Shown here in pieces: positions 3,532 to 36,180 of a DNA stretch of 36,180 nucleotides (within the stretch, counting starts at the first letter, position 1; the number at the start of each line of letters is the position of its first letter). The position numbers and the translations under genes are program-made. Under the pieces are notes generated by a model. It was not told the origin of the DNA. It worked only from the letters and a program-made list of their open reading frames with translations, and made no database searches. This DNA is from a virus, in the IMG/VR virus record IMGVR_UViG_3300033145_000902, positions 1 to 36,180 of that record, one strand, 5' to 3'.

Positions 3532-3747
3532 ATGGCGATATACTTATATTATTGCCCAGTATGCGACCATAGCTTTGAACTTCATAAGCCGATGGCAAAA
3601 GCTGGTGAGGATGAGGAATGTCCGAAGTGTGGGGTCAAGGCTATGAGGAAATATACTCCAGTGGCTCACAGCTTCGGTTGGAGACTCACTGAAGCCTGCC
3701 AGCTACCTGGGGGTAGTAAGTGGGCGGAAATTGAACGTGATGTGTGA
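3532..3747 (+). CDS. FmdB-like zinc ribbon protein, 71 aa
   Basis: Starts at the ATG directly after the preceding stop, with the AAGGAA of that gene's last codons as a ribosome binding site; an upstream in-frame ATG at 3370 lies inside the previous gene and is rejected. The first 45 residues hold CPVC and CPKCG, spaced as in FmdB-type regulatory zinc ribbons (MxxYxYxC, then a FELHKPM-like turn). The tail is short and ends in IERDV, nearly the same C-terminus as the next gene (LERDV). The zinc ribbon suggests nucleic acid or protein binding; its partner is unknown. Confidence 0.7.
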   Translation: MAIYLYYCPVCDHSFELHKPMAKAGEDEECPKCGVKAMRKYTPVAHSFGWRLTEACQLPGGSKWAEIERDV

Positions 3748-3757
3748 AGGAAGAATA

Positions 3758-4336
3758 ATGGAATATGAAATTGGCACTATAGCACATGGGGGAGAAATAG
3801 GCAAAAGCGGGGGAGCAAAACGCAATCTATTTATCTTCCGTGCATGTTTAGGTTGTGGTAAGCCTCAATGGGTAGCTTATCGTAAGAGTAAAGGAAAACC
3901 AGAAACGGTTCGTTGCCAGTCATGTGCAGGTTTACACAGGTATGAAGGAGTTGCGAAACGAAAATATCAAGTCCGTGGCTATACATGGGTCAAATTAGAT
4001 AAGGATGATTTCTTCTACCCTATGGTTCAGAAGGATGGCTATGTTCGAGAACATCGCCTAATCATGGCGAAACATCTTGGTAGATGCTTACAGCCTTGGG
4101 AAACGGTTCATCATAAAAACGGCGACAAGCATGACAACCGAATTGAAAATTTAGAGCTAGCACTTTCGCAAGGAGAACACATTAGAAGCCATAATAAAGG
4201 TTATCGAGAAGGATACCTTAAAGGTTTATACGATGGGCATGAAACCAGAATAAAAGCATTGGAACAACGTGTTACCATATTGGAAGCTGAAAATCTACTT
4301 CTGAAACAACGGGCTGAGTTGGAACGTGATGTCTAG
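3758..4336 (+). CDS. HNH homing-type endonuclease with coiled-coil tail
   Basis: 192 residues from ATG 3758, which has GAAGGAAG upstream; a TTG at 3731 is a less likely start. An N-terminal zinc-binding region (CLGCG near residue 30, CQSC near residue 52) is followed by an HNH_3-like core: REHRLIMAKHLGR, then WETVHHKNGDKHDNRIENLE near residues 115-135, which contains the HH and N-rich metal-binding turn. The C-terminal 35 residues form a leucine-zipper-like coil. Free-standing HNH genes in phage head operons are usually selfish homing elements that nick or cut DNA. An 11-bp direct repeat (GAACGTGATGT at 3733-3743 and 4322-4332) flanks the gene, consistent with insertion. Confidence 0.85.
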   Translation: MEYEIGTIAHGGEIGKSGGAKRNLFIFRACLGCGKPQWVAYRKSKGKPETVRCQSCAGLHRYEGVAKRKYQVRGYTWVKLDKDDFFYPMVQKDGYVREHRLIMAKHLGRCLQPWETVHHKNGDKHDNRIENLELALSQGEHIRSHNKGYREGYLKGLYDGHETRIKALEQRVTILEAENLLLKQRAELERDV

Positions 4337-6492: not shown

Positions 6493-7194
6493 ATGCGAAT
6501 TCGGCAGCTAGAAGTTATGGCTGAGGAATATATCCTTGAGCCTAATCTTGTCCTCTATGCCCCTTTGTGGAAAAGAGATGGTGCTTCCTTCATGTCGGAT
6601 GACCATTATGGGCATTCCTGCTCCGTAACTGGTGCTGTCTGGACTCCACAGGGCAGAAGTTTTGATGGCACGGACGACTACATAAACTGTGGTACTTCGG
6701 CTGCTTTTAACGCTACCACCGAGCTTACTTTAATAGCCTGGGTTGCCCCGGCAGATGTGACACCAGCATCCACAAAAATGATAATTGCCAAGTATAATAC
6801 TAATGGTGACCAGAGGTCATGGGAGCTTGAACTTCGCACTGATGGCAAGTTAGGGGTTAGTTTTGGAGACCCATCTGATGGCACTTATGAAGGCAGAGTA
6901 GATAGTGATGTGGCTGTTTTCACTACGGATAACGAATGGGTATACGTTGCTATGTCTTTTCATTCTGGCACGGTTGTCCTGTACAAAAATGGCAGTTTGA
7001 TATCCTCTCACACGGTAAGTGGGGCAGTGCCAGCCAGTCTCTTTGTTTCTACTACACCAGTATTTATAGCCTTCAGGGAGGGATACAATAGGTACCTGGC
7101 TGGTAAAGTGGGAGATTGTTTTATATATAACCGTGCTCTAGAGCCTTCAGAAATCCATCAAAATTATCTGGCAACTAAATGGAGATATCAGTAA
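6493..7194 (+). CDS. LamG/concanavalin A-like jelly-roll virion protein
   Basis: 233 residues. The hallmarks of the Laminin_G_3 fold are present in order: LVLYAPLW near residue 18, FDGTDDYINCG near residue 57, ELTLIAWVAP near residue 74, then NEWVYVAMSFHSGTVVLYKNGSLI (about residues 138-160) and GKVGDCFIYNRALEPSEI near residue 210. These domains bind carbohydrate or protein, so a role in adhesion to host surface polymers is likely. ATG overlaps the end of the previous gene's stop region (AGGAGAG site); an internal ATG at 6517 is a weaker start. Confidence 0.8.
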   Translation: MRIRQLEVMAEEYILEPNLVLYAPLWKRDGASFMSDDHYGHSCSVTGAVWTPQGRSFDGTDDYINCGTSAAFNATTELTLIAWVAPADVTPASTKMIIAKYNTNGDQRSWELELRTDGKLGVSFGDPSDGTYEGRVDSDVAVFTTDNEWVYVAMSFHSGTVVLYKNGSLISSHTVSGAVPASLFVSTTPVFIAFREGYNRYLAGKVGDCFIYNRALEPSEIHQNYLATKWRYQ

Positions 7195-7232
7195 TGAAAT
7201 ACAGCGCAAGTCTTGTAGTGGTGGAGAGATAA

Positions 7233-15392: not shown

Positions 15393-15634
15393 TTCGCCTC
15401 CTCCTTAACCTTTTTATATCTTTCTAAAAATCCCATCGGTGTTAAGAGTTGAAAGGCTTCCGTAAAACCTTCTTCACCTGCATATTTCAGGAGCCAGCTA
15501 ACATAACCTCCCCATGAGAGTCTGCCACCATGTATGCGGTAATTGGGAAAGTAGTCTAGGGCATCAATCCATTGCCCGCCTGTAGCATTGGTAGTTATTG
15601 GCAAAGCAACATTATCTAAAACAAGGAAATTCAT
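15389..15634 (-). CDS. Hypothetical protein, 81 aa
   Basis: ATG overlaps the TGA of the upstream gene (ATGA) with AAGGTAGAG as ribosome binding site, and its end overlaps the DUF5131 start the same way. Rich in Trp, Tyr and Gly (GGQWIDALDYFPNYR, SWGGYVSWLLKYAG). No family recognised. Coupling on both sides suggests co-expression with the DUF5131 protein. Confidence 0.6.
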   Translation of the reverse strand: MNFLVLDNVALPITTNATGGQWIDALDYFPNYRIHGGRLSWGGYVSWLLKYAGEEGFTEAFQLLTPMGFLERYKKVKEEAK

Positions 15635-15984
15635 AACTCTACCTTCCTGAAGCCCGCTCTGAGCATAGCCAATATCCCCCTCTCAAAGCCATTAAAAGCC
15701 ATAATATAGACATCTTCTTCCGTTGCTGGTTCGCTACCCGCTTGCTCTATCTGTTTGTCATAAGGATTTTCTGGCAAGCTCTGGTCATCACTCAGCTTGA
15801 CGTATCCTGCCTCTTTGATGATGGCAAGGATTCGATTTGCGAAACAGTAATTGCAATAGTCGGGGAAGCGAATGTCTATGCCCGCTTCAGCTTCAATAGC
15901 TGCATCATCTGGACACTCAATTTCACAATTAAATAGCCCTATATTGTCTCGTGCATAATGTGCTAACTTCTCTCTCAGTTCCAT
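15631..15984 (-). CDS. Hypothetical protein, 117 aa, with one Cys pair
   Basis: Strong AAAGGAGG site 6 bases from ATG. It is the first gene after the structured RNA region on the minus strand. An FPDYCNYCFANRILAII stretch near residue 40 has one CxxC pair, with a CEIEC pair nearby at residues 20-24, so a metal site is possible. The second half is acidic and then amphipathic (YIMAFNGFERGILAMLRAGF). Family unknown. Confidence 0.6.
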   Translation of the reverse strand: MELREKLAHYARDNIGLFNCEIECPDDAAIEAEAGIDIRFPDYCNYCFANRILAIIKEAGYVKLSDDQSLPENPYDKQIEQAGSEPATEEDVYIMAFNGFERGILAMLRAGFRKVEL

Positions 15985-16022: not shown

Positions 16023-16373
16023 GGGACTGGGGCTGGTGACGCTACCTCTCACCACTTCCTAGCACTTATTGACATCGGCTAGTTATACACTGGCTATGCA
16101 CCCCAGTCCCTTTGCCCTGAGCCTATTACATTACCCTCCTGTCTTACGCTTCCCTGCGTTCCCTCGGCTCAGGCTCCTCCAGCTAGTCGGCAAGTATGGT
16201 TCAGTTAGTCACGGCTGTCGTCTCTCGCCACAACACTTAGCTAACTCAGGCGGACTAGTTTTAGTTAGCACCGCTTTCGCCTAGTTTCACCTTGCAGGTA
16301 GCTGGCAGGTGCTTGCTGGCACCCCTCCTTACTATTAAGGCGACTTCCACAGCATACATCGCCACCAGCAAGC
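16023..16373 (-). ncRNA. Candidate large structured RNA (approximately 350 nt), family unknown
   Basis: Seven non-crossing perfect helices can be drawn. In plus coordinates: 16023-16032/16101-16110 (10 bp) enclosing 16059-16063/16078-16082; 16116-16123/16166-16173 (8 bp) enclosing 16146-16149/16156-16159; 16183-16188/16253-16258 enclosing 16203-16208/16241-16246; 16311-16319/16365-16373 (9 bp) enclosing 16339-16343/16359-16363. Read on the minus strand, 16273-16280 is GCGAAAGC, a GNRA-type loop. No gene with codon character exists here on either strand; a 71-codon plus-strand frame is the antisense of the helices. The minus strand is chosen because both flanking genes run that way. It resembles large ornate phage RNAs such as GOLLD or ROOL in style, but I recognise no family motif. 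Confidence 0.65.
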
Positions 16374-16383
16374 TATTCGATTG

Positions 16384-16560
16384 TTAACGATTTCTGGAAC
16401 GTGGCACTTTAATCTCCATTTCAGTCACACCACCCGCACCATTCCATTTCAATACTAGCCTGATTGTGCCATCGTGATAGCCAACCTTAAAGGTCGCTTC
16501 GCCATTATCAGGCACACTCTCAATCAATCGCAGAAGCGATTTTAATTCACCGATTTTCAT
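16384..16560 (-). CDS. Hypothetical protein, 58 aa
   Basis: ATG 16560 with GGATGG upstream; TAA 16384-16386 lies just before the structured RNA. Sequence begins MKIGELKSLLRLIESVPDNG and continues with a beta-hairpin-like FKVGYHDGTIRLVLKW. It ends in basic residues (VPRSRNR). The pattern is protein-like and the start is good, so I count it as a gene. Family not recognised. Confidence 0.55.
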   Translation of the reverse strand: MKIGELKSLLRLIESVPDNGEATFKVGYHDGTIRLVLKWNGAGGVTEMEIKVPRSRNR

Positions 16561-18934: not shown

Positions 18935-19846
18935 TTAACTTATTTTTTCCAGTAACAATACACGCTCACATCTGAATTTACCGTCTGTGTTATATGGTAT
19001 AACTACTCCAGGCAACCATTCCCATTTTATGAGAACCTTCCAAACGCCAGTTTCGGGTAAGTATTCCCACGTTCTGGTTGCCACGTTCACTCCGCAGGCA
19101 CAATCTACCGTAGGTAGAGGGTTTACAACCTCGGATATTTCTTCCCCTAGTTCTATTTTCCATGATGATGGCGGTGGGAAATTAGAGCCGAAAGCTTTAT
19201 ATGCAATATAACCATCTGTTGTTTTTTCAAGGTTCTTTGCCATCCAGTCTACAGGAGATAGTAATCCTCTTATACGACTCAGGTCGGCACGACTCAGGTC
19301 GGCATGACTCAGGTTGGCATCACTCAGGTTGGCATCACTCAGGTTGGCATCACTCAGGTTGGCATGACTCAGGTTGGCACGACTCAGGTCGGCATGACTC
19401 AGGTCGGCATCACTCAGGTTGGCATCACTCAGGTTGGCACGACTCAGGTCGGCACGACTCAGGTCGGCACGACTCAGGTCGGCACGACTCAGGTCGGCAT
19501 GACTCAGGTCGGCACGACTCAGGTCGGCACGACTCAGGTTGGCATGACTCAGGTTGGCATCACTCAGGTTGGCATCACTCAGGTTGGCACGACTCAGGTC
19601 GGCATAACGCAGGTCGGCACGACTCAGGTCGGCACGACTCAGGTCGGCATCACTCAGGTTGGCATCACTCAGGTTGGCATCACTCAGGTTGGCACGACTC
19701 AGGTCGGCATGACTCAGGTCGGCATCACTCAGGTTGGCACGACTCAGGTCGGCATAACGCAGGTCGGCACGACTCAGGTCGGCTTTGGTGCCACCGTTGT
19801 TCTCTAGCCATTTTTTATGTTCATTTATTATAGCTTGTATATCCAT
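18935..19846 (-). CDS. Pentapeptide-repeat protein with C-terminal globular domain
   Basis: 303 residues. After a 21-residue helical N-terminus ([17 protein letters not shown]), residues 22-191 are 34 consecutive pentapeptides of the form A(D/N)LSx, the signature of the right-handed quadrilateral beta-helix. Residues 192-303 are a globular domain with [20 protein letters not shown], then [15 protein letters not shown] and WKVLIKWEW, like the end domains of several phage pentapeptide proteins (DUF5758-type). Pentapeptide proteins such as MfpA and Qnr mimic DNA and bind gyrase, so protection or inhibition of host topoisomerase is possible but unproven. Ribosome binding site CGGAGG. Confidence 0.85.
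19274..19783 (-). repeat. Tandem array of 34 x 15-bp units encoding the pentapeptides
   Basis: The 510-bp array repeats a unit read on the plus strand as ACTCAGGT(C/T)GGCA(C/T)(G/C). Variation is limited to two or three positions, so the DNA itself is nearly uniform. An order of unit types ([20 protein letters not shown]) occurs at units 1-4 and 11-14, suggesting a larger duplication. Such an array can change copy number by slippage or recombination. Confidence 0.85.
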
Positions 19847-26659: not shown

Positions 26660-26857
26660 ATGCGACGGATAGACTTTCTTGATGTAGACATACAGGTAGC
26701 GATAGTTGATTTAGGGAGGAAGCAGCAGAGGATAGCGTCTGAGTGTATGAAGGTATGGGATAGTATGAGTGGGAAGTTACCGAGCTTTCAATCTTTTTGT
26801 GAGATGTACATGAGGGAGAGGATGGAGGGTTTAATAGGGAAGGTTAGGTGGAATTGA
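26660..26857 (+). CDS. Hypothetical protein, 65 aa
   Basis: GGGGGG run upstream of ATG as a binding site. Helical product (VAIVDLGRKQQRIASECMKVWD) with two Cys and several Met; ends overlapping the terminase GTG start by 10 bases. No family recognised. Confidence 0.55.
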   Translation: MRRIDFLDVDIQVAIVDLGRKQQRIASECMKVWDSMSGKLPSFQSFCEMYMRERMEGLIGKVRWN

Positions 26858-28290
26858 TAGGAGGCACTACGGAAGTTCAAGACATAGAGAAGCAGGTAGT
26901 AGAGATAGAGGTACCCAAGCCTTATGGTGGGTGGCAGGAAGAGTTTGTGCGGTGTGTAGCAAAGAGGCAGGTAATTAAAGCTGGTAGGCAAAGTGGGAAG
27001 ACGTATGGTGCGGGGATAAAGGCGTGTTTGGCGTTTTTGGGTATATGCTGGAGTTGTTTAGGGGAAGGGTGTGGGTTATGTGATAATACGGGGCGGACGA
27101 ATCAGAAGCGGGTATTATATGCAGCGCCCACGGCGGAGCAGACGGACATGTTCTGGTATGAGGTAACGAATGCGCTCATGCCTGGGATAGAGACGGGGCA
27201 GTTCAAGAAAGATGAGACAGAGAGGACGATAGAGGTTGTTGGGACGAACATTGTATTGAAAGCCAAGACAGCGTGGAACGCCAACAGTTTAAGAGGTGGC
27301 AACTGGGATGTGCTGATACTTGAGGAGTTCCAGTTAATGAATGAGGATACATGGACTGATGTAGGGGCAGCCATGTTGCTTTTATCTGATGGCACGGCGA
27401 TATTTATTTTCACTCCGCCTTCGTTAAAAAGTGAGGGAGTAAGTAAAGCGAAAGACCCCCGTCATGCCAGCAAGTTATTTCAGAAGGCTCTGGCTGATAA
27501 GAGTGGGAGATACAAAGTTTTTCATGCAACCTCAATGGATAACCCGAAGTTGAGTAAGGAAGCACTGGATGAAATTACGGGCGATATGTCGATGGACACA
27601 TACCGCCGTGAGATTTTAGCGCAGGATGACGAAATTGAGCAATCGTGGCTCGTTTACGGTAAGTTTGACGATACCCAGTGCATGATTAAAAGGTTTCCCA
27701 TTCCTGATAATTGGACAGTGTTTAGCGGTCATGATTTTGGGGAAGCCAACCATGCTGCCCTGTTTGTGGCACAGGTTAGACTGCCCTTACCCCCGCAAGC
27801 TCCTGCTTACTTAAGGGTTGGTGATTACGTGGCGTTTGCCGAGTATGTTCCAAAGGCTGGGTCGTCGGCGGAAAGGCACATTGAGCATTACAAAGACATC
27901 ATGGGTAGAAAGGATGATGGGACACTCAGGTTAAGGTTGGAGAGGGCTGTTGGCGGGAATGTAACCACTGAGGAAGAGACGAGGCAGTTGTACCGCAGGC
28001 TTGGCTGGAATATCAAGGCACCAGAGATAACAAGGGTAAAGCTACAGATAGATAGGGCGATGGCGATTGTAGAACAAAAGCAACTCTATGTCTTTGATGA
28101 CTTGCATAATCTGTTGAGGGAAATTCACGATTGTATGTGGGAAATAGACCCGGAGACAAAGAAGCCATTGGACAAAGTAAAGGATGAGGCAAAGTATCAC
28201 TTACTGTCCTGCTGGCGTTACTTATCAACGGTACTGATACCCAAAGTCCCATTAAGAACGGGGCGGGGAGCACAGGTCTGGAATATGTAG
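26848..28290 (+). CDS. terL: Large terminase subunit with Cys4 insertion
   Basis: 480 residues from GTG 26848 with AGGGAAGG upstream. The Walker A (KAGRQSGKT, residues 44-52) and Walker B (DVLILEEFQ near residue 150) of the packaging ATPase are present, then a coupling segment (IFIFTPPS). The nuclease domain begins with SGHDFGEANHAALFV near residue 297 and ends with DEAKYHLLSCWRYL near residue 450, which supply its acidic residues. Between Walker A and the next strand sits CWSCLGEGCGLC (residues 67-78), a C-x2-C-x4-C-x2-C zinc-ribbon-like insertion not normal for terminases. It cuts and pumps phage DNA into proheads through the portal. Confidence 0.9.
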   Translation: MELIGGTTEVQDIEKQVVEIEVPKPYGGWQEEFVRCVAKRQVIKAGRQSGKTYGAGIKACLAFLGICWSCLGEGCGLCDNTGRTNQKRVLYAAPTAEQTDMFWYEVTNALMPGIETGQFKKDETERTIEVVGTNIVLKAKTAWNANSLRGGNWDVLILEEFQLMNEDTWTDVGAAMLLLSDGTAIFIFTPPSLKSEGVSKAKDPRHASKLFQKALADKSGRYKVFHATSMDNPKLSKEALDEITGDMSMDTYRREILAQDDEIEQSWLVYGKFDDTQCMIKRFPIPDNWTVFSGHDFGEANHAALFVAQVRLPLPPQAPAYLRVGDYVAFAEYVPKAGSSAERHIEHYKDIMGRKDDGTLRLRLERAVGGNVTTEEETRQLYRRLGWNIKAPEITRVKLQIDRAMAIVEQKQLYVFDDLHNLLREIHDCMWEIDPETKKPLDKVKDEAKYHLLSCWRYLSTVLIPKVPLRTGRGAQVWNM

Positions 28291-30070: not shown

Positions 30071-30268
30071 ATGCCAAGATTAAGCAACGAAATGATAAAT
30101 AACCGTGTGCGTGCAGCCATGCAACCGCCTGCACAACAGGTTGCTGGTAAGTTACCACCAACTACTATGGAAAATCTCATCCAGAAAGCAAAGGCTAAAC
30201 GTGGGGCTGCACCAGAGATAAAACTATCGCCTGAGCAAAAAGTCGACTTGAAGGCAAGAGGTATATGA
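30071..30268 (+). CDS. Hypothetical basic protein, 65 aa
   Basis: GAAGGAGG site before ATG; ends 1 base before the giant gene start. Sequence is Pro/Ala/Lys-rich (AAMQPPAQQVAGKLPP, IQKAKAKRGAAP), largely disordered in appearance. It may be a virion or head-assembly peptide by position; no family recognised. Confidence 0.55.
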   Translation: MPRLSNEMINNRVRAAMQPPAQQVAGKLPPTTMENLIQKAKAKRGAAPEIKLSPEQKVDLKARGI

Positions 30269-30269
30269 C

Positions 30270-33200
30270 ATGGCAACACCAAAAATTGGAGGGCTGCGCT
30301 CATACCGTACAGGTGCAGGTGAAAAACCACCAGAGCCTAAAGAGCCTGCGCTGGTCAAACCACGTCTTATCACTATACCACGTGAGCCTGAAGATGAATT
30401 AACTAAACATCTGCGTAAAATCCTTCAGATACCAGGCGCTGAAAGACGGCTAACCCAATTTGGAGAGATTGAGCTCACACCTGAATCTCTGAAGCAGGCT
30501 GGATTGGAACTGGATATTGGAGAAGGCTCGCACCTAAAGGTAAAACTTGGAGACAAAGGCTACCAGTTCTTTGAAGTTCCGCCTGCTGAAGCTGAGGGAA
30601 TTCCTGGAATCAAGATAAAACTTCCCGAAACCATGACGACTGAGGGGTGGAGTGTTACCGATGAGGGCTTGCTGAAATCAGCTACTGGGGAGCTATTCAC
30701 ACCTGAGGAACTGGAACAGCAAAGACAGACTGACCTGCGTGAATTTGAGCAGACCATTTTGCCTCAGTTACCAGAGGAATTGCGTGCTCAGTATGGCAAT
30801 ATCCCGATGGAAGATTTCATGGCAAAACTTGAAGAATACAGGCAGCCGTTCATTGAAAGACAGGAAAACCTTAATGAAGCCTTTTTTGCCGTGTTCCCAG
30901 AATTTGAGAAACTGGGGGAGGGTGCCGTAAGCGAATGGATGACTAAACTCGAAACCGACGAGAAATTCCAGGAAGATTTTGTTACCATGCTTCTGCAACG
31001 GGGTAGAACTACCGAGACCGAGAATCTGCTCAAGGCAATGGGGGCTGATGATACTCAGGTGCAGGAATTCTTTGCCGAACCTGAAGTTGAGCCTCCCGAA
31101 TTAGAGGCAAGACTTCCAATAACCGAGCAGGCAATTAGTGATATTAATGAGGCATGGAGGGGGTTTACTACTGGCGAGTTCAAGTGGAGTGAACTTGGGA
31201 AAGTTGCACTGGCAGGGCTTGGGACTGCTGGTGCTTTTATGGAGAAATATATCGGGAGACCCTGGGAAGGGTTTTTAATGGAGTCGGCAGCAAGGCTAAT
31301 GAACGCTGTTGGGCAAGGCGATGAATGGAGTAATTGGATTGTGCAATCCTCCGATGTTCTCCGAAAGAAGTATGGCTGGGCGGGTATTTTCTCTGAAGAC
31401 ATATCCTATATGTGGGACAGGGTAAAGTTTGCTGCCGAGAAAATGGGGCAACCATCGTGGGCGTTGACAGCGCTGGAATGGGCAAATCCTGCTTACCTTA
31501 TCCCCGTTGGTGAAGCGATAGGTATTGGTGCTCGCTTTACTTCACAGATAACAGTGCTTGGTAAGGTATTGACCAAAACTGCTGCTGGAGTTCAGGCTAT
31601 CGAAAGAGGTTTGGCTTATCCAATAGCCAAGCCTCTTGAACTAGGAGCTAAAGGTGTTCTCAAGGTTGGCGAGAAACTGGGCGAGAACGCAGCCCGAAGG
31701 CTTGTTGAGCAAGCTGATAATCTACTTCTCACAATCCCAGCAAGTGATGATATTATCAAAGGAGTGCTGGTTGATAACTGGCAAAAGAGAGTGCTGACTA
31801 CAGCAGCTAGAGTCCCAATAATCAAGACTGGCATTCAAAAAGTGTTGGGTAATCGCATCCTTATAAAGAAGGAAAGCCAGATACTCGAAGATATTGTTGG
31901 CAGGGCTTCTGTAGTTAATGCAGAAATCAGGCGCATGGGCATCAATGCTAAAGCAGTTAAAGTTTGGGAGTTGCGAGACATTGACCTGAATCCAATCAAA
32001 TCTTTTGGCTTCAATAATCAGGCTTTTTCTAAGAAAATGTTTAGCAGGTTACTACCTGAATATGCTGGTGAAAAAGATATAGCAGGCACTTTGGAACACA
32101 TTTTTACCAATCCCCAAAAGTACGACTGGACGGGTATGTCAAAGCAACTGAACTATGTTACAAGAATTCATGAAGTCAACACTGAGGTTCTTAACCTGCT
32201 TAAAGCAGAGGGTGTGCCTCCTAAGAACTTAACCGAAGATTGGTGGATTCACAGGGTTGTGCAAGGCAAGTTTGACCCTGAAGGCGAATTGATTGCTATA
32301 AGAGGTAAACCAGGTGTAAAACCAGGGCGAGTTGGCGCAAGACCCTCTTATGAAATGCACCGCAAGGCTCCGACTATGGCTGAGGGAATTGCTTGGGGAG
32401 TCAAGTATAACCAAAACCCCGAAGTAGCGGTTGCCTCTTATATAGAGGAAGCATTTAAGAAGATAGCCGATAGTAGAGCGGTCAAGATGGTTGAGGAGTT
32501 TGGTATCTTGCCATCTGAAAGACTGGCAGAGCGATTCCCCGAAGTGGTAGCAAGAGCGGAGTTGACCAAAGTTGAACTTGCCGATGCTGCTAAATTTGGC
32601 TCGGTCATAAATCGTGCTCTACGAGGTGAGAGAATTCCTGAACAAACTCTCAGGTCTATAGAAAAGAGATTTCCTGTTCTTGGCGCAAGGTTGAGGTCGG
32701 CAGTTAAGGGAACACCACTAAAGCCAATGGATGAAGCTGCTAATCTTGCTGAAACTGGAGCAAGGGAATTATTTGATTACCCGCAAAAGATACCTCCAAA
32801 GATAGTTTCTGAGGCTGAATGGGTTACAATGTCTGTGCCAGATAGAGTCGCTTTGGTAAAACAGGTTGGGCTTGAAGGCAAAGTAGGTTCCAAATCATGG
32901 AAAGCATTAAGTGCTAAAGAAAAAGAGGCTTTGACTACAATTGAAGTAATCAAACCCAAAGTAGAAGGGATTAAGGGGCTTGAAGGTGAGTCTGCTATAA
33001 AGAGAATTAAATACGAACCTCCACCAGCCAAGACACCAGATGCTCGCAAGTCTGAATTGGAAGCACTGCGCCGAGAAGTTAAGGCGCTTACAGAGGCAAG
33101 AAAAGCACCTTACTGGCAGGCTAAAGCTGAACGTGCTCTCAGAATGGAGCAGGTGAGGCAACCTGAAATCGGTGAAGGCTTTCTACTCCAGCCTTTTGCT

Positions 33201-36180
33201 AGTGGCAGGATATTCAAGCAAGATTTTATAGACGCCTTCAACAAGTTCTTTGGACATGATGCTGGCTCAAGTGTTCTGAAAGCAACCAGTGATGTGGCTG
33301 GTATTCTCAGAATGGCTAGAGCGTCTCTTGACTTCTCGGCTATGGCAATCCAAGGTTTGCCATCTTGGGGACTGGCTCATGCCTATGCCATGTTTAACCC
33401 GAAGATAGGTATGAGGATGCTCGGTGCGTGGTATAAAGCCTTTTTTGAGTCAACAAGGGCGTTCTTTGATGCCAGTGTGGTAGCTGGATTCATGAAAAAG
33501 AACCAGCAGATAGCTTTACAGAGAATATCATTCGGGGGAAGTTCCAGGGTGGTTGACTACTTTGCTGCACTGGAAGCGAGAACTGGTATCGGTGGTAAAG
33601 CAGAATGGCTGATGGAGAAACTACCATTGAAACCTTACCATCGGGCAGAGACAGCCTTTTTTGGCGCTGGCGAGATGGTGAGAGATGAGTTCTGGCGCAT
33701 ACTATCTCCGAAGGCGATTAAAAGCGGTAAGGAATTCGAGTTGGCTCGCTTCCTTGACAGGATAACAGGGATTAGCGATGCAGCTTCTCTTGGCGTTCCT
33801 CTTACAACAAGACAGTTGGAGCAGACATTCGCCTGGTTTGCGCCGAATTATACCAGGGCTTGTCTCACCGTTCTGGCAGATATATTCAGGGGGGGCATGA
33901 CTGGCGCTGAGGCGAGGAAAGCATTAGGCGGTATGATAGGCGCTGGTTCCATCATGTATACAGGTGTTCAGTTTGCCATGCAAAAGAGTGAAGGCAAGTC
34001 TGATGAAGAGGCATGGGATACTGTCTTGGGAGGCTTCGGTGTTCATGCCGACCCGATAACAGGTGAGGTTGAATGGCAACCGACAGGGCAGTTTATGACT
34101 ATTAAGGTCGGTAATTATAACTTTGGATTCGGCGGGTTCTGGTATGGGCTATTAAGATTGGCTGGCAATATTAATGAAGCAATCAACAGTGTGGGTGATA
34201 AAGAGCCAATTGACCTTGTACGCATTATAAAGCATGGTAGTTTTAACAAGCAGGATAATCCATTTATCTACTGGTGGTATAGTCGCTCATCACCACTATT
34301 CGGCACGGGCTTTGAACTGGCTACCGGCAAGGACTTTTTGGGTTATCCTATTGAGACGAAAGAACAGTACCTGGAGTATATTCTTACCAGATTTGAGCCG
34401 ATATGGGCAGAGCAAGGATTAAACTGGATGGTGCCAGGTTTTGCCAGAGACTATGAAATCCCTGAAGGTGCTGCCAGAGCAGCTGTCATTCCAGCAGAAC
34501 TGTTCGGTTTAAGGACGTTCCCTGAAAGCCAGTGGGTAAAATTCTACGATAAGGCTAACGATTATATACAGAGAATACCTGCGGAGGAATTGGATGAAAA
34601 GCAAATAGAGGCATGGCAACAGGGGAAGCTCACATGGAAACATCTGACTGAGATGCAGAAGGCTACTCTATTTCAACGCTACCCCGAATTGGAGGATGAA
34701 TATACCAAAGCTCTAAGTGATAGCCAGTTGAGACAGCGAGAGCATTGGAAGGCATGGGAGGGGAGGATTGAGGAGGAACGTAACATTTATTATAAACGCA
34801 TAGAAGAGCTAACCCAAAGGTTAATCTCTGGAGATATAGATAGCAGGGAATACAGGGAGATGGCTGGCGAGGCTGGACAAAATTATGGAGCAGCTTTGGA
34901 CTCTATTGAGCGAGACCCAAACTATGCTATGATTTACGATTACTTTGCGCAGAAGCAGGCTGAAGGCGATAAGTATGGATTTCGGGATGATATCATGCTC
35001 GGCGAGTATCAGTCTGAAATACTTTACGCTGAGGATTTGGTTGATAGCAAGGGCGACTATGATTGGGAAGAAAGAAACCGCAGGATAGATGCATTTATCG
35101 AGAAGTGGGGGCAGGATGGATATGACAGGATTCAAGCCTATCTTCAGCAGGAAAAGGGGCACAAGGGGCTGAATGAAGTATGGATTAGAAAAGGAACTGA
35201 TATTGAAGCATTAAGTCGTGGATACTGGGAATTACCCTATAAGCCGATAATAGAGATGGATGAGGGTGATGAAGCTGATGGGAATATACCTGCTGAGTAC
35301 CTGGCTTTATGGAAGCAGTATCAGGATACTGAAGATAAAGAGGCATTTCTTGAGGAACATCCAGAGCTGGCGAAGGATTGGCGTGCTGAGTGGCGCAAAG
35401 AGCACCCCGAAGATGATGCTCGGCTAGCCTTGTGGGGCTACGGTGGTAAGTTGCAATCAATGGAAGCCTATAACCTTGTAGAGAAGTGGAGCAAGGAACT
35501 CGGCATACCATTAGAGCAGATGGGATTGGGCATACCTCCGAGAACTTTGGTTAAGCCTTATTTTGAATATCTGGATAAGCAGAGGGAATACGGGGGTAAT
35601 AGTCCTGAAGCCAAGCTGTTCAGGGTAGAGAACAATGGCTTTGAGGATTGGGCTGAGGAAAACTGGGGTTGGAAACCTGTTAAGGAACACTCTGAAGCAT
35701 TGCGGATAAGCGTCAAATATCGTGAGCAGGATAAGGAATATGAATCTATTCAAATGGAAGATGATAAGGCGCAGCGTGAAGCAAGGGCTGAATATCTCGC
35801 CAAAAACGATGAGTACAGGATTGCACGTAAAAGGCGTGAGGCATACCAACTTGAATTGCCAGACGAAATGGTAGATAACTATGTAGAGTATAGTGAACTT
35901 TCTCAATATGGTTACTGGCGAGAAAGATACCGCAAAGAGAATCCCGAATTTAATGCCACTATCAGCAAAGTTCTTGAATTGCAACCAATAGAACCTGATA
36001 AAATACCTGATGCCCGCTATGACGAAATTTACGAGAAATACAAAGACCTGTTCAGGCAGTACGAAGAGGCTCAAGGAACCACTGAGGAGCGAAAGGCTTA
36101 CAGGGAAAGACTACTTGAGGAAAATCCTGAGTTTGCTGTTGCAAGGCGAGAGCGTGAGGCTTATGGTCTACTGCTACCAG
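30270..36180 (+). CDS. Giant virion-type protein, large-polyvalent-protein-like; wraps across the contig ends
   Basis: Open from ATG 30270 (AGAGG upstream) to the window end and on into 1..803; 2,199 residues when joined. It starts with a charged, Glu/Pro-rich region (residues 1-290), then hydrophobic helices near residues 310, 405 and 1225 (for example GGMIGAGSIMYTGVQFAM). Around residues 1310-1430 a block (FIYWWYSRSSPLFGTGFELA, TGKDFLGYP, VIPAELFGLRTFP) resembles C-terminal parts of large polyvalent phage proteins. The end holds three approximately 95-residue repeats. No tape measure exists elsewhere, and the position between portal and scaffold is that of ejected internal proteins, so it may be carried in the capsid and injected with DNA. 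The function is inferred. Confidence 0.8.
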   Translation, partial: MATPKIGGLRSYRTGAGEKPPEPKEPALVKPRLITIPREPEDELTKHLRKILQIPGAERRLTQFGEIELTPESLKQAGLELDIGEGSHLKVKLGDKGYQFFEVPPAEAEGIPGIKIKLPETMTTEGWSVTDEGLLKSATGELFTPEELEQQRQTDLREFEQTILPQLPEELRAQYGNIPMEDFMAKLEEYRQPFIERQENLNEAFFAVFPEFEKLGEGAVSEWMTKLETDEKFQEDFVTMLLQRGRTTETENLLKAMGADDTQVQEFFAEPEVEPPELEARLPITEQAISDINEAWRGFTTGEFKWSELGKVALAGLGTAGAFMEKYIGRPWEGFLMESAARLMNAVGQGDEWSNWIVQSSDVLRKKYGWAGIFSEDISYMWDRVKFAAEKMGQPSWALTALEWANPAYLIPVGEAIGIGARFTSQITVLGKVLTKTAAGVQAIERGLAYPIAKPLELGAKGVLKVGEKLGENAARRLVEQADNLLLTIPASDDIIKGVLVDNWQKRVLTTAARVPIIKTGIQKVLGNRILIKKESQILEDIVGRASVVNAEIRRMGINAKAVKVWELRDIDLNPIKSFGFNNQAFSKKMFSRLLPEYAGEKDIAGTLEHIFTNPQKYDWTGMSKQLNYVTRIHEVNTEVLNLLKAEGVPPKNLTEDWWIHRVVQGKFDPEGELIAIRGKPGVKPGRVGARPSYEMHRKAPTMAEGIAWGVKYNQNPEVAVASYIEEAFKKIADSRAVKMVEEFGILPSERLAERFPEVVARAELTKVELADAAKFGSVINRALRGERIPEQTLRSIEKRFPVLGARLRSAVKGTPLKPMDEAANLAETGARELFDYPQKIPPKIVSEAEWVTMSVPDRVALVKQVGLEGKVGSKSWKALSAKEKEALTTIEVIKPKVEGIKGLEGESAIKRIKYEPPPAKTPDARKSELEALRREVKALTEARKAPYWQAKAERALRMEQVRQPEIGEGFLLQPFASGRIFKQDFIDAFNKFFGHDAGSSVLKATSDVAGILRMARASLDFSAMAIQGLPSWGLAHAYAMFNPKIGMRMLGAWYKAFFESTRAFFDASVVAGFMKKNQQIALQRISFGGSSRVVDYFAALEARTGIGGKAEWLMEKLPLKPYHRAETAFFGAGEMVRDEFWRILSPKAIKSGKEFELARFLDRITGISDAASLGVPLTTRQLEQTFAWFAPNYTRACLTVLADIFRGGMTGAEARKALGGMIGAGSIMYTGVQFAMQKSEGKSDEEAWDTVLGGFGVHADPITGEVEWQPTGQFMTIKVGNYNFGFGGFWYGLLRLAGNINEAINSVGDKEPIDLVRIIKHGSFNKQDNPFIYWWYSRSSPLFGTGFELATGKDFLGYPIETKEQYLEYILTRFEPIWAEQGLNWMVPGFARDYEIPEGAARAAVIPAELFGLRTFPESQWVKFYDKANDYIQRIPAEELDEKQIEAWQQGKLTWKHLTEMQKATLFQRYPELEDEYTKALSDSQLRQREHWKAWEGRIEEERNIYYKRIEELTQRLISGDIDSREYREMAGEAGQNYGAALDSIERDPNYAMIYDYFAQKQAEGDKYGFRDDIMLGEYQSEILYAEDLVDSKGDYDWEERNRRIDAFIEKWGQDGYDRIQAYLQQEKGHKGLNEVWIRKGTDIEALSRGYWELPYKPIIEMDEGDEADGNIPAEYLALWKQYQDTEDKEAFLEEHPELAKDWRAEWRKEHPEDDARLALWGYGGKLQSMEAYNLVEKWSKELGIPLEQMGLGIPPRTLVKPYFEYLDKQREYGGNSPEAKLFRVENNGFEDWAEENWGWKPVKEHSEALRISVKYREQDKEYESIQMEDDKAQREARAEYLAKNDEYRIARKRREAYQLELPDEMVDNYVEYSELSQYGYWRERYRKENPEFNATISKVLELQPIEPDKIPDARYDEIYEKYKDLFRQYEEAQGTTEERKAYRERLLEENPEFAVARREREAYGLLLP
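36067..36180. repeat. Right copy of 114-bp terminal direct repeat
   Basis: Identical to bases 1-114 and in the coding frame of the giant protein, which shows that the ends join. Unique genome length is therefore 36,066 bp. Confidence 0.95.

Follow-up and report, generated by a model that had tools for sequence, protein, structure and literature searches.

The locus considered here raises the question of what fills the 399 bases, devoid of a minus-strand frame, between the end of a 58-aa gene (16384) and the start of a 117-aa gene (15984), and what it may do there. The window, i.e. the whole stretch of DNA analysed, is an entire IMG/VR virus record (G000, 36,180 bp) with a 114-bp terminal repeat; its plus strand carries the virion gene set, while the minus-strand operon to which the two genes belong codes for a Gp3-like recombination factor, a resolvase/endonuclease-like protein and a DUF5131 protein. 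The original prediction placed in this gap a large structured RNA of no recognisable family, transcribed from the minus strand.

The element in the window

The element, located at 16023-16373, has a G+C content of 0.52 vs ca. 0.45, and it lacks coding character as predicted, with stops in all three minus frames and no conserved reading frame in its relatives, where one was looked for. The features of the locus, all on the minus strand, are as follows:

16384..16560, minus strand: upstream gene, 58 aa, function unassigned, ending at the element
16381..16387, minus strand: TTAACAA, 5' boundary motif before P1, overlapping the stop codon of the upstream gene
16311..16373, minus strand: domain P1, with inner stems GGCGA/TCGCC and CCTTA/TAAGG; the same stem occurs in 27 aligned relatives
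16373-16365 with 16319-16311, minus strand: closing stem of P1, 9 bp, GCTTGCTGG/CCAGCAAGC
16176..16308, minus strand: domain P2, the family core, with the hairpin ACC-TGCAA-GGT (16299-16289) and a large variable interior; matched by covariance model R1
16305-16299 with 16185-16179, minus strand: stem of P2, 7 bp, CCAGCTA/TAGCTGG
16240..16269, minus strand: hairpin in the P2 interior, 7 bp, GCTAACT/AGTTAGC, private to the window and not conserved in relatives
16116..16173, minus strand: domain P3, optional in the family and present in 12 members
16173-16166 with 16123-16116, minus strand: stem of P3, 8 bp, CCTGAGCC/GGCTCAGG
16023..16110, minus strand: domain P4, with small hairpins in its interior; the outer helix covaries in 22 members
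16110-16101 with 16032-16023, minus strand: closing stem of P4, 10 bp, GGGACTGGGG/CCCCAGTCCC
15631..15984, minus strand: downstream gene, 117 aa, with a strong Shine-Dalgarno site; its start MELRE- and the surrounding sequence recur in relatives L026 and L055/L073

The nested perfect helices on which the prediction was built are present: among perfect helices of 7 bp or longer, the best nested combination comprises 41 bp, compared with 14.0 ± 6.7 bp in dinucleotide shuffles, none of 200 reaching 41. The folding energy of the window element is unremarkable (MFE z = -0.53, with 30 of 100 shuffles as good), so the element would be missed by folding energy alone. This ordinary energy is what speaks for chance pairing or a decayed gene, a reading already refuted by ca. 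40 homologues, by covariation and by the covariance-model match in the independently chosen relative L001. The adjoining gene with an excellent ribosome binding site was also correctly recognised, its ATG (15984) lying 38 nt past the end of P4. The predicted loop, GC-GAAA-GC, does exist, but it is private to the window genome, the conserved tetraloop hairpin of the family being CCC-GAAA-GGG in P2. Readings of the element as a K-turn, a group I/II intron or attC were dropped after inspection by eye.

Elsewhere in the window, one open frame of ca. 2,205 codons runs from 30252-36180 into 1-800, across the contig junction, when the two ends are joined by overlap of the 114-bp terminal repeat; this speaks for a complete genome that is circular or permuted. 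The minus operon also codes for a 303-aa pentapeptide-repeat protein (18935-19846, minus strand; Pfam Pentapeptide, 4e-61). The terminase large subunit (26848-28290, plus strand) has a single close relative in the phage collection, from the archaeal Methanosarcina virus MetMV (57.6% over 174 aa); a host assignment based on this likeness was dropped, the MetMV record having no match to the P2 model. Two further matches in the window were set aside: a possible second P2 at 3695-3785 (E 0.39), in overlap with a short ORF of zinc-ribbon-like character, and a model match at 7027-7106, lying opposite a coding gene and taken as chance.

A family of tandem hairpin domains

No relatives of the window element were found by blastn among phage and plasmid records, and a 22-nt exact pattern from the window had no match in viral contigs; the elements of two relatives, compared with phages by blastn, gave nothing beyond a chance 25-nt match. 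The downstream 117-aa protein used as bait brought in no relatives. It was L002, a relative of the DUF5131 gene, that showed two short matches collinear with the window element and thereby made a conserved frame visible, namely CTTGCTGG..CCAGCAAG and, after it, CCAGCTA. Used as a search pattern, this frame returned 31 contigs, of which about half were genuine by inspection, a looser form gave further relatives, and a pattern on the second domain alone returned 33 contigs, nearly all genuine. Altogether, DNA patterns and the covariance model yielded ca. 40 distinct viral relatives, from viruses known only by environmental DNA, with 36 distinct P2 domains plus L001, L002, L037 and second copies.

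The R1 model matches P2 of the window (16176-16308) with E 2.6e-6 among 45 sources, or 2e-7 with filters off and the window alone, the window being itself one of the 22 model sequences. An independent check is provided by L001, which was fetched by means of its Gp3-like protein with no DNA pattern and is thus an independently ascertained homologue: R1 matches it at 7106-7214 (E 9.6e-5), directly after the Gp3-like gene, with the element starting 16 nt past the Gp3 stop codon. At E up to 0.05, R1 matched 41 of 44 whole records, most of them just once (the exceptions being G003, G004 and the MetMV record), a fraction which is no measure of how common the element is, since the records, L001 apart, were selected for holding the pattern. 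The strict P1 plus P2 pattern had one match, chance-looking, in 84,980 prokaryote genomes.

As the prediction had it, no known family signature is present: Rfam gave no gathering-level match in the window and none relevant on the element at E up to 10, nor any relevant in the loci of 16 relatives at E up to 5 or 1. No description of this RNA family was found in the open-access literature; subscription papers were mostly outside the scope, and a prior report is possible.

The family consists of tandem hairpin domains in the fixed order P1-P2-(P3)-P4, with P2 as the core. The P1 consensus is GCTTGCTGG-TGTC..(C)CGAG-CCAGCAAGC, and that of P2 is (T)GCCAGCTA-CCCGAAAGGG-..-CTAC-TAGCTGGC(A), comprising a GNRA-type hairpin, H1, the conserved core sequence GCCAGCTACCCGAAAGGG..CTACTAGCTGGC, and an internal helix, P2b, in which the bases before TAGCTGG pair with the interior. 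The optional P3 has the consensus CCTGAGCC..GGCTCAGG, and P4, N-GGGG-TG..AG-CCCC-N, ends shortly before the next Shine-Dalgarno site. The set of domains varies from P2 alone (L058, L060 and the second copy of L048) through P1-P2 (L054, L064, L065) and P1-P2-P4 (L002) to P1-P2-P3-P4 (the window, L026, L055), and the length of the element from ca. 80 to 400 nt. TTAACAA occurs within 30 nt upstream of 13 of 36 elements, compared with 0.3% of random positions, and this boundary motif is often followed by more stop codons. In L048 (11100-11460, minus strand), a direct repeat of ca. 70 nt (TCTAAGGATACTGTCTAGGCAGTACC...AGTAGTGGGGTG) precedes two P4-like starts, apparently a recent duplication of the 5' part of P4, and in L053 (708-928, plus strand) there are two tandem P2 domains, the first a diverged variant found by the covariance model only.

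The base pairing was assessed by permutation, which ignores the kinship of the sequences, though most members are unalignable outside the motifs; on this basis the outer helix of P4 forms 88 of 110 pairs in 22 members, compared with 41.3 ± 5.4 for permuted partner arms (0 of 10,000), and P2b occurs in 29 of 37 members, compared with 18.4 ± 2.1 (0 of 5,000). The P4 sequences were chosen by the GGGG/CCCC motif only, and the pairing outward of it was compared with the arms of other members. The covariation score of P4 from a pair-counting tool is 0.398 against 0.111 in shuffles (0 of 500), and it is much lower with the partner slid. In P2b, GTAGC/GCTAC, GTATC/GATAC, GTCAT/ATGAC and GGAGC/GCTCC replace one another. 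Pairing of the P2 flanks is above the permuted level (12 of 3000) and that of P1 weakly so (55 of 3000), while for the outer pairs of P3 alone covariation is not significant (293 of 3000). Individual members carry compensatory changes: in P1, L072 has GATGG/CCATC in place of GCTGG/CCAGC, and L067 has GCTCGCTGG/CCAGCGAGC; in a second P2 copy of G032, found by the model only, the stem GCTGGCTA/TAGCCAGC differs by two compensatory pair changes from GCCAGCTA/TAGCTGGC, with H1 and CTAC kept. A pseudoknot inside P2, joining the segment after H1 to the bases before CTAC, seemed plausible on visual inspection of L029 and L065 and was rejected as not above permutation (8 vs 8.2). With covariation clear in the homologues, the region 16023-16373 is a real structured RNA on the minus strand, belonging to a family without an Rfam match.

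Exchange of domain interiors and genomic setting

L055 and L073 are 98.2-99.8% identical over ca. 7.5 kb, and the sole piece that cannot be aligned is the interior of P1, ca. 67 nt in one and 50 in the other, bordered by the constant stem motifs; the interiors of P2, P3 and P4 are identical. In the pair L063/L065, identity is 83% on one side and 78% on the other but does not extend into the interiors of P1 and P2. Conversely, single domains are common to viruses whose neighbouring sequences are unalignable: P2 of L047/L053 (87.5% over exactly the domain) and of L057/L078 (92%), P1 of L017/L038 (89%) and of L023/L052 (86%), and a P3-type domain of L014/L053 (91%). The replaced P1 interior together with the domains common to unrelated viruses indicates that each interior is exchanged as a whole, the breakpoints falling within the stems or close beside them. 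A second role of the stems may be to provide homology for recombination, which would explain the low variation of the P1, P2 and P3 stems relative to the interiors, the constancy of the P1 and P2 stems being partly imposed by the search patterns. The L055/L073 pair poses a testable question, namely why one hairpin interior of ca. 65 nt was replaced with all else kept over 7.5 kb.

The element usually starts just past the upstream stop codon and fills the space between two operon genes, nearly all copies being intercistronic. It shares its strand with the nearest downstream gene every time (40 of 40) and with the upstream one in 34 of 36 cases, so that it is read on one strand. Its neighbours, identified by family search or resemblance, are mostly replication and recombination genes, such as those for a RecT-like protein (Pfam match below its cut-off), a Sak4-like ATPase and a CRISPR-associated-like nuclease, and the gene immediately downstream varies (nuclease-like, small unknown, HNH-like, terS). 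In the flanking genes there is no integrase or transposase constantly beside the element. In L002 (1244-2562), two successive ORFs start as the DUF5131 N-terminus does (MNRTQIEWVQNPDG.. and MNRTSIEWVRNPDG..), the first running into HNH-type endonuclease-like sequence, as if the copy had been interrupted. Downstream of the element of L028 (minus strand), a TTGACA-type promoter is followed by an inverted repeat (CGTTACTACTTCGTAACATG), possibly a repressor operator, and then by a small HTH-like gene.

Some P2-only copies lie in structural operons. That of L048/L074 is located ahead of terS/terL/portal, ca. 20 nt past a promoter consensus, TTGACA-N17-TATGAT, and those of L058 and L060 precede portal- and scaffold/capsid-like genes, read as such from the translations with no family match. 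L048 and the L017 record (G007) each have one copy in the replication operon and one upstream of terS; the terS-side copy of G007, a weak model match (E 8e-4), follows a terminator-like hairpin instead of preceding one. In L060 and G007 there are further promoter-like sites, some way off, and most copies are in mid-operon. By a stricter definition, only two strong terminators lie on the same strand in the 117 kb downstream of the elements, 23 and 51 nt past P2-only copies, and most copies have no terminator nearby. Counts of promoter and terminator consensus near the elements are not clearly above those in shuffles, the single sites being only suggestive.

Possible function and comparison with known systems

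The reading that we favour, tentatively and with a probability of about 0.4, is that of a cis-acting RNA on the operon transcript. The element would be transcribed within the operon mRNA, would fold as transcription proceeds and would act on its own transcript, most likely at the level of transcription elongation, with less pausing or termination along a long phage operon as the result, in the manner of the put RNA of HK022; P2 would be the functional core, with P1, P3 and P4 as accessory domains. Action in cis is favoured because one and the same virus can have copies at different operons, because the downstream gene is not constant, and because P2-only copies sit past a promoter or before a terminator. 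Control of one particular downstream gene is probably not involved, since this gene differs between viruses. Several points count against a put-like action: hypervariable, swapped interiors are unexpected in an RNA docking on a conserved polymerase, mid-operon copies have no nearby terminator, and the G007 copy lies past a terminator-like hairpin. Moreover, the promoter-P2-terminator layout is also the look of an independent small RNA gene, which counts against the cis reading as such.

A nearly equal rival, possible though more doubtful, is a trans-acting noncoding RNA encoded in the operon and released by processing, whose constant stems would display hypervariable target-binding interiors (as decoy, sponge or antisense) swapped under diversifying selection, because such interiors fit a re-targetable RNA better. 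The wholly replaced interior between viruses 98-99% identical elsewhere, the single domains common to unrelated viruses, the promoter-P2-terminator unit of L048/L074 and the usual single copy per record all suit it; against it, the presence of copies in two operons of a single virus argues for cis, and the interiors match the virus's own transcripts no better than those of other members do (mean longest match 9.2 vs 9.2). An extension of this reading, which we regard as rather unlikely, is an RNA "cassette rack", in which the constant stems would act as RNA frames and, at the same time, as short homologies for phage recombination swapping the interiors, so that a lineage could redirect an RNA acting in trans at host defence or at rival phages; if true, it would allow fast re-targeting. 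Slightly less likely still is a cis element acting on the processing or stability of the mRNA or insulating the translation of neighbouring genes, with hairpins protecting or cleaving the intercistronic stretch and TTAACAA..TAG stopping ribosomes before entry. The element does often occupy the whole gap from the end of the upstream gene nearly to the following Shine-Dalgarno site, its boundary motif carries stops in several frames, and the downstream gene is not constant, but any hairpin would do for this purpose, which leaves the conserved P2 core (GCCAGCTACCCGAAAGGG..CTACTAGCTGGC) and the fixed domain order unexplained. A DNA-level palindromic element, be it a recombination site, a replication origin or a small mobile element, is improbable: conserved inverted-repeat arms, changing interiors and cassette exchange are expected from short-repeat recombination, yet the single orientation to the downstream gene (40 of 40), the fixed order P1-P2-P3-P4, the conservation by covariation of P2b as a multi-branched internal helix and the lack of a constantly adjoining integrase or transposase all speak against it.

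The family is a class of structured phage RNA new to the catalogues, with ca. 40 examples to test; it would represent a new antitermination element of phages if its action is on transcription, and an RNA-based arms-race locus if it acts in trans.

Integron attC sites are imperfect palindromes with a variable interior, involved in cassette exchange. The element resembles them in these respects and differs in having no integron integrase seen in the flanking genes, one orientation in 40 of 40 cases and covarying multi-branch helices; attC core sites in the right arrangement were not seen on inspection by eye only. Plasmid copy-control antisense RNAs combine conserved stems with hypervariable loops, as does the element, which nevertheless has many tandem stems, no conserved opposite-strand promoter that could be seen and no excess complementarity to own transcripts (9.2 vs 9.2 nt). 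The EAR element is an intercistronic structured RNA inside the long eps operon of Bacillus, and the present element shares this placement within an operon but differs in sequence and has no Rfam model match; neither OLE nor any other curated Rfam family gave a relevant covariance-model match to the window element or the loci of 16 relatives.

ROOL and GOLLD, RNAs characterised by a homo-oligomeric cage, were named in the original prediction for comparison. The likeness holds for general style only, both being large multi-helix noncoding phage RNAs supported by covariation, and fails for the Rfam match and the tRNA association. ROOL and GOLLD are often found near tRNA islands (PMC12286853), a frequent, not universal, association, whereas ARAGORN found no tRNA in the complete 36-kb window genome. 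The element is also shorter (ca. 80-400 nt) and operon-internal, with tandem separable domains and swapped interiors.

HK022 put, a short phage RNA located past early promoters and independent of phage proteins (PMC9378689), may serve as a working analogue, with no membership claimed. The element is larger and modular, with most copies in mid-operon, and the likeness drawn here is not one of sequence. Like put, it would be a phage RNA in an operon transcript, of which more than one copy per genome is possible, and the P2-only copy of L048/L074, just past its promoter, recalls the placement of putL (PMC9378689).
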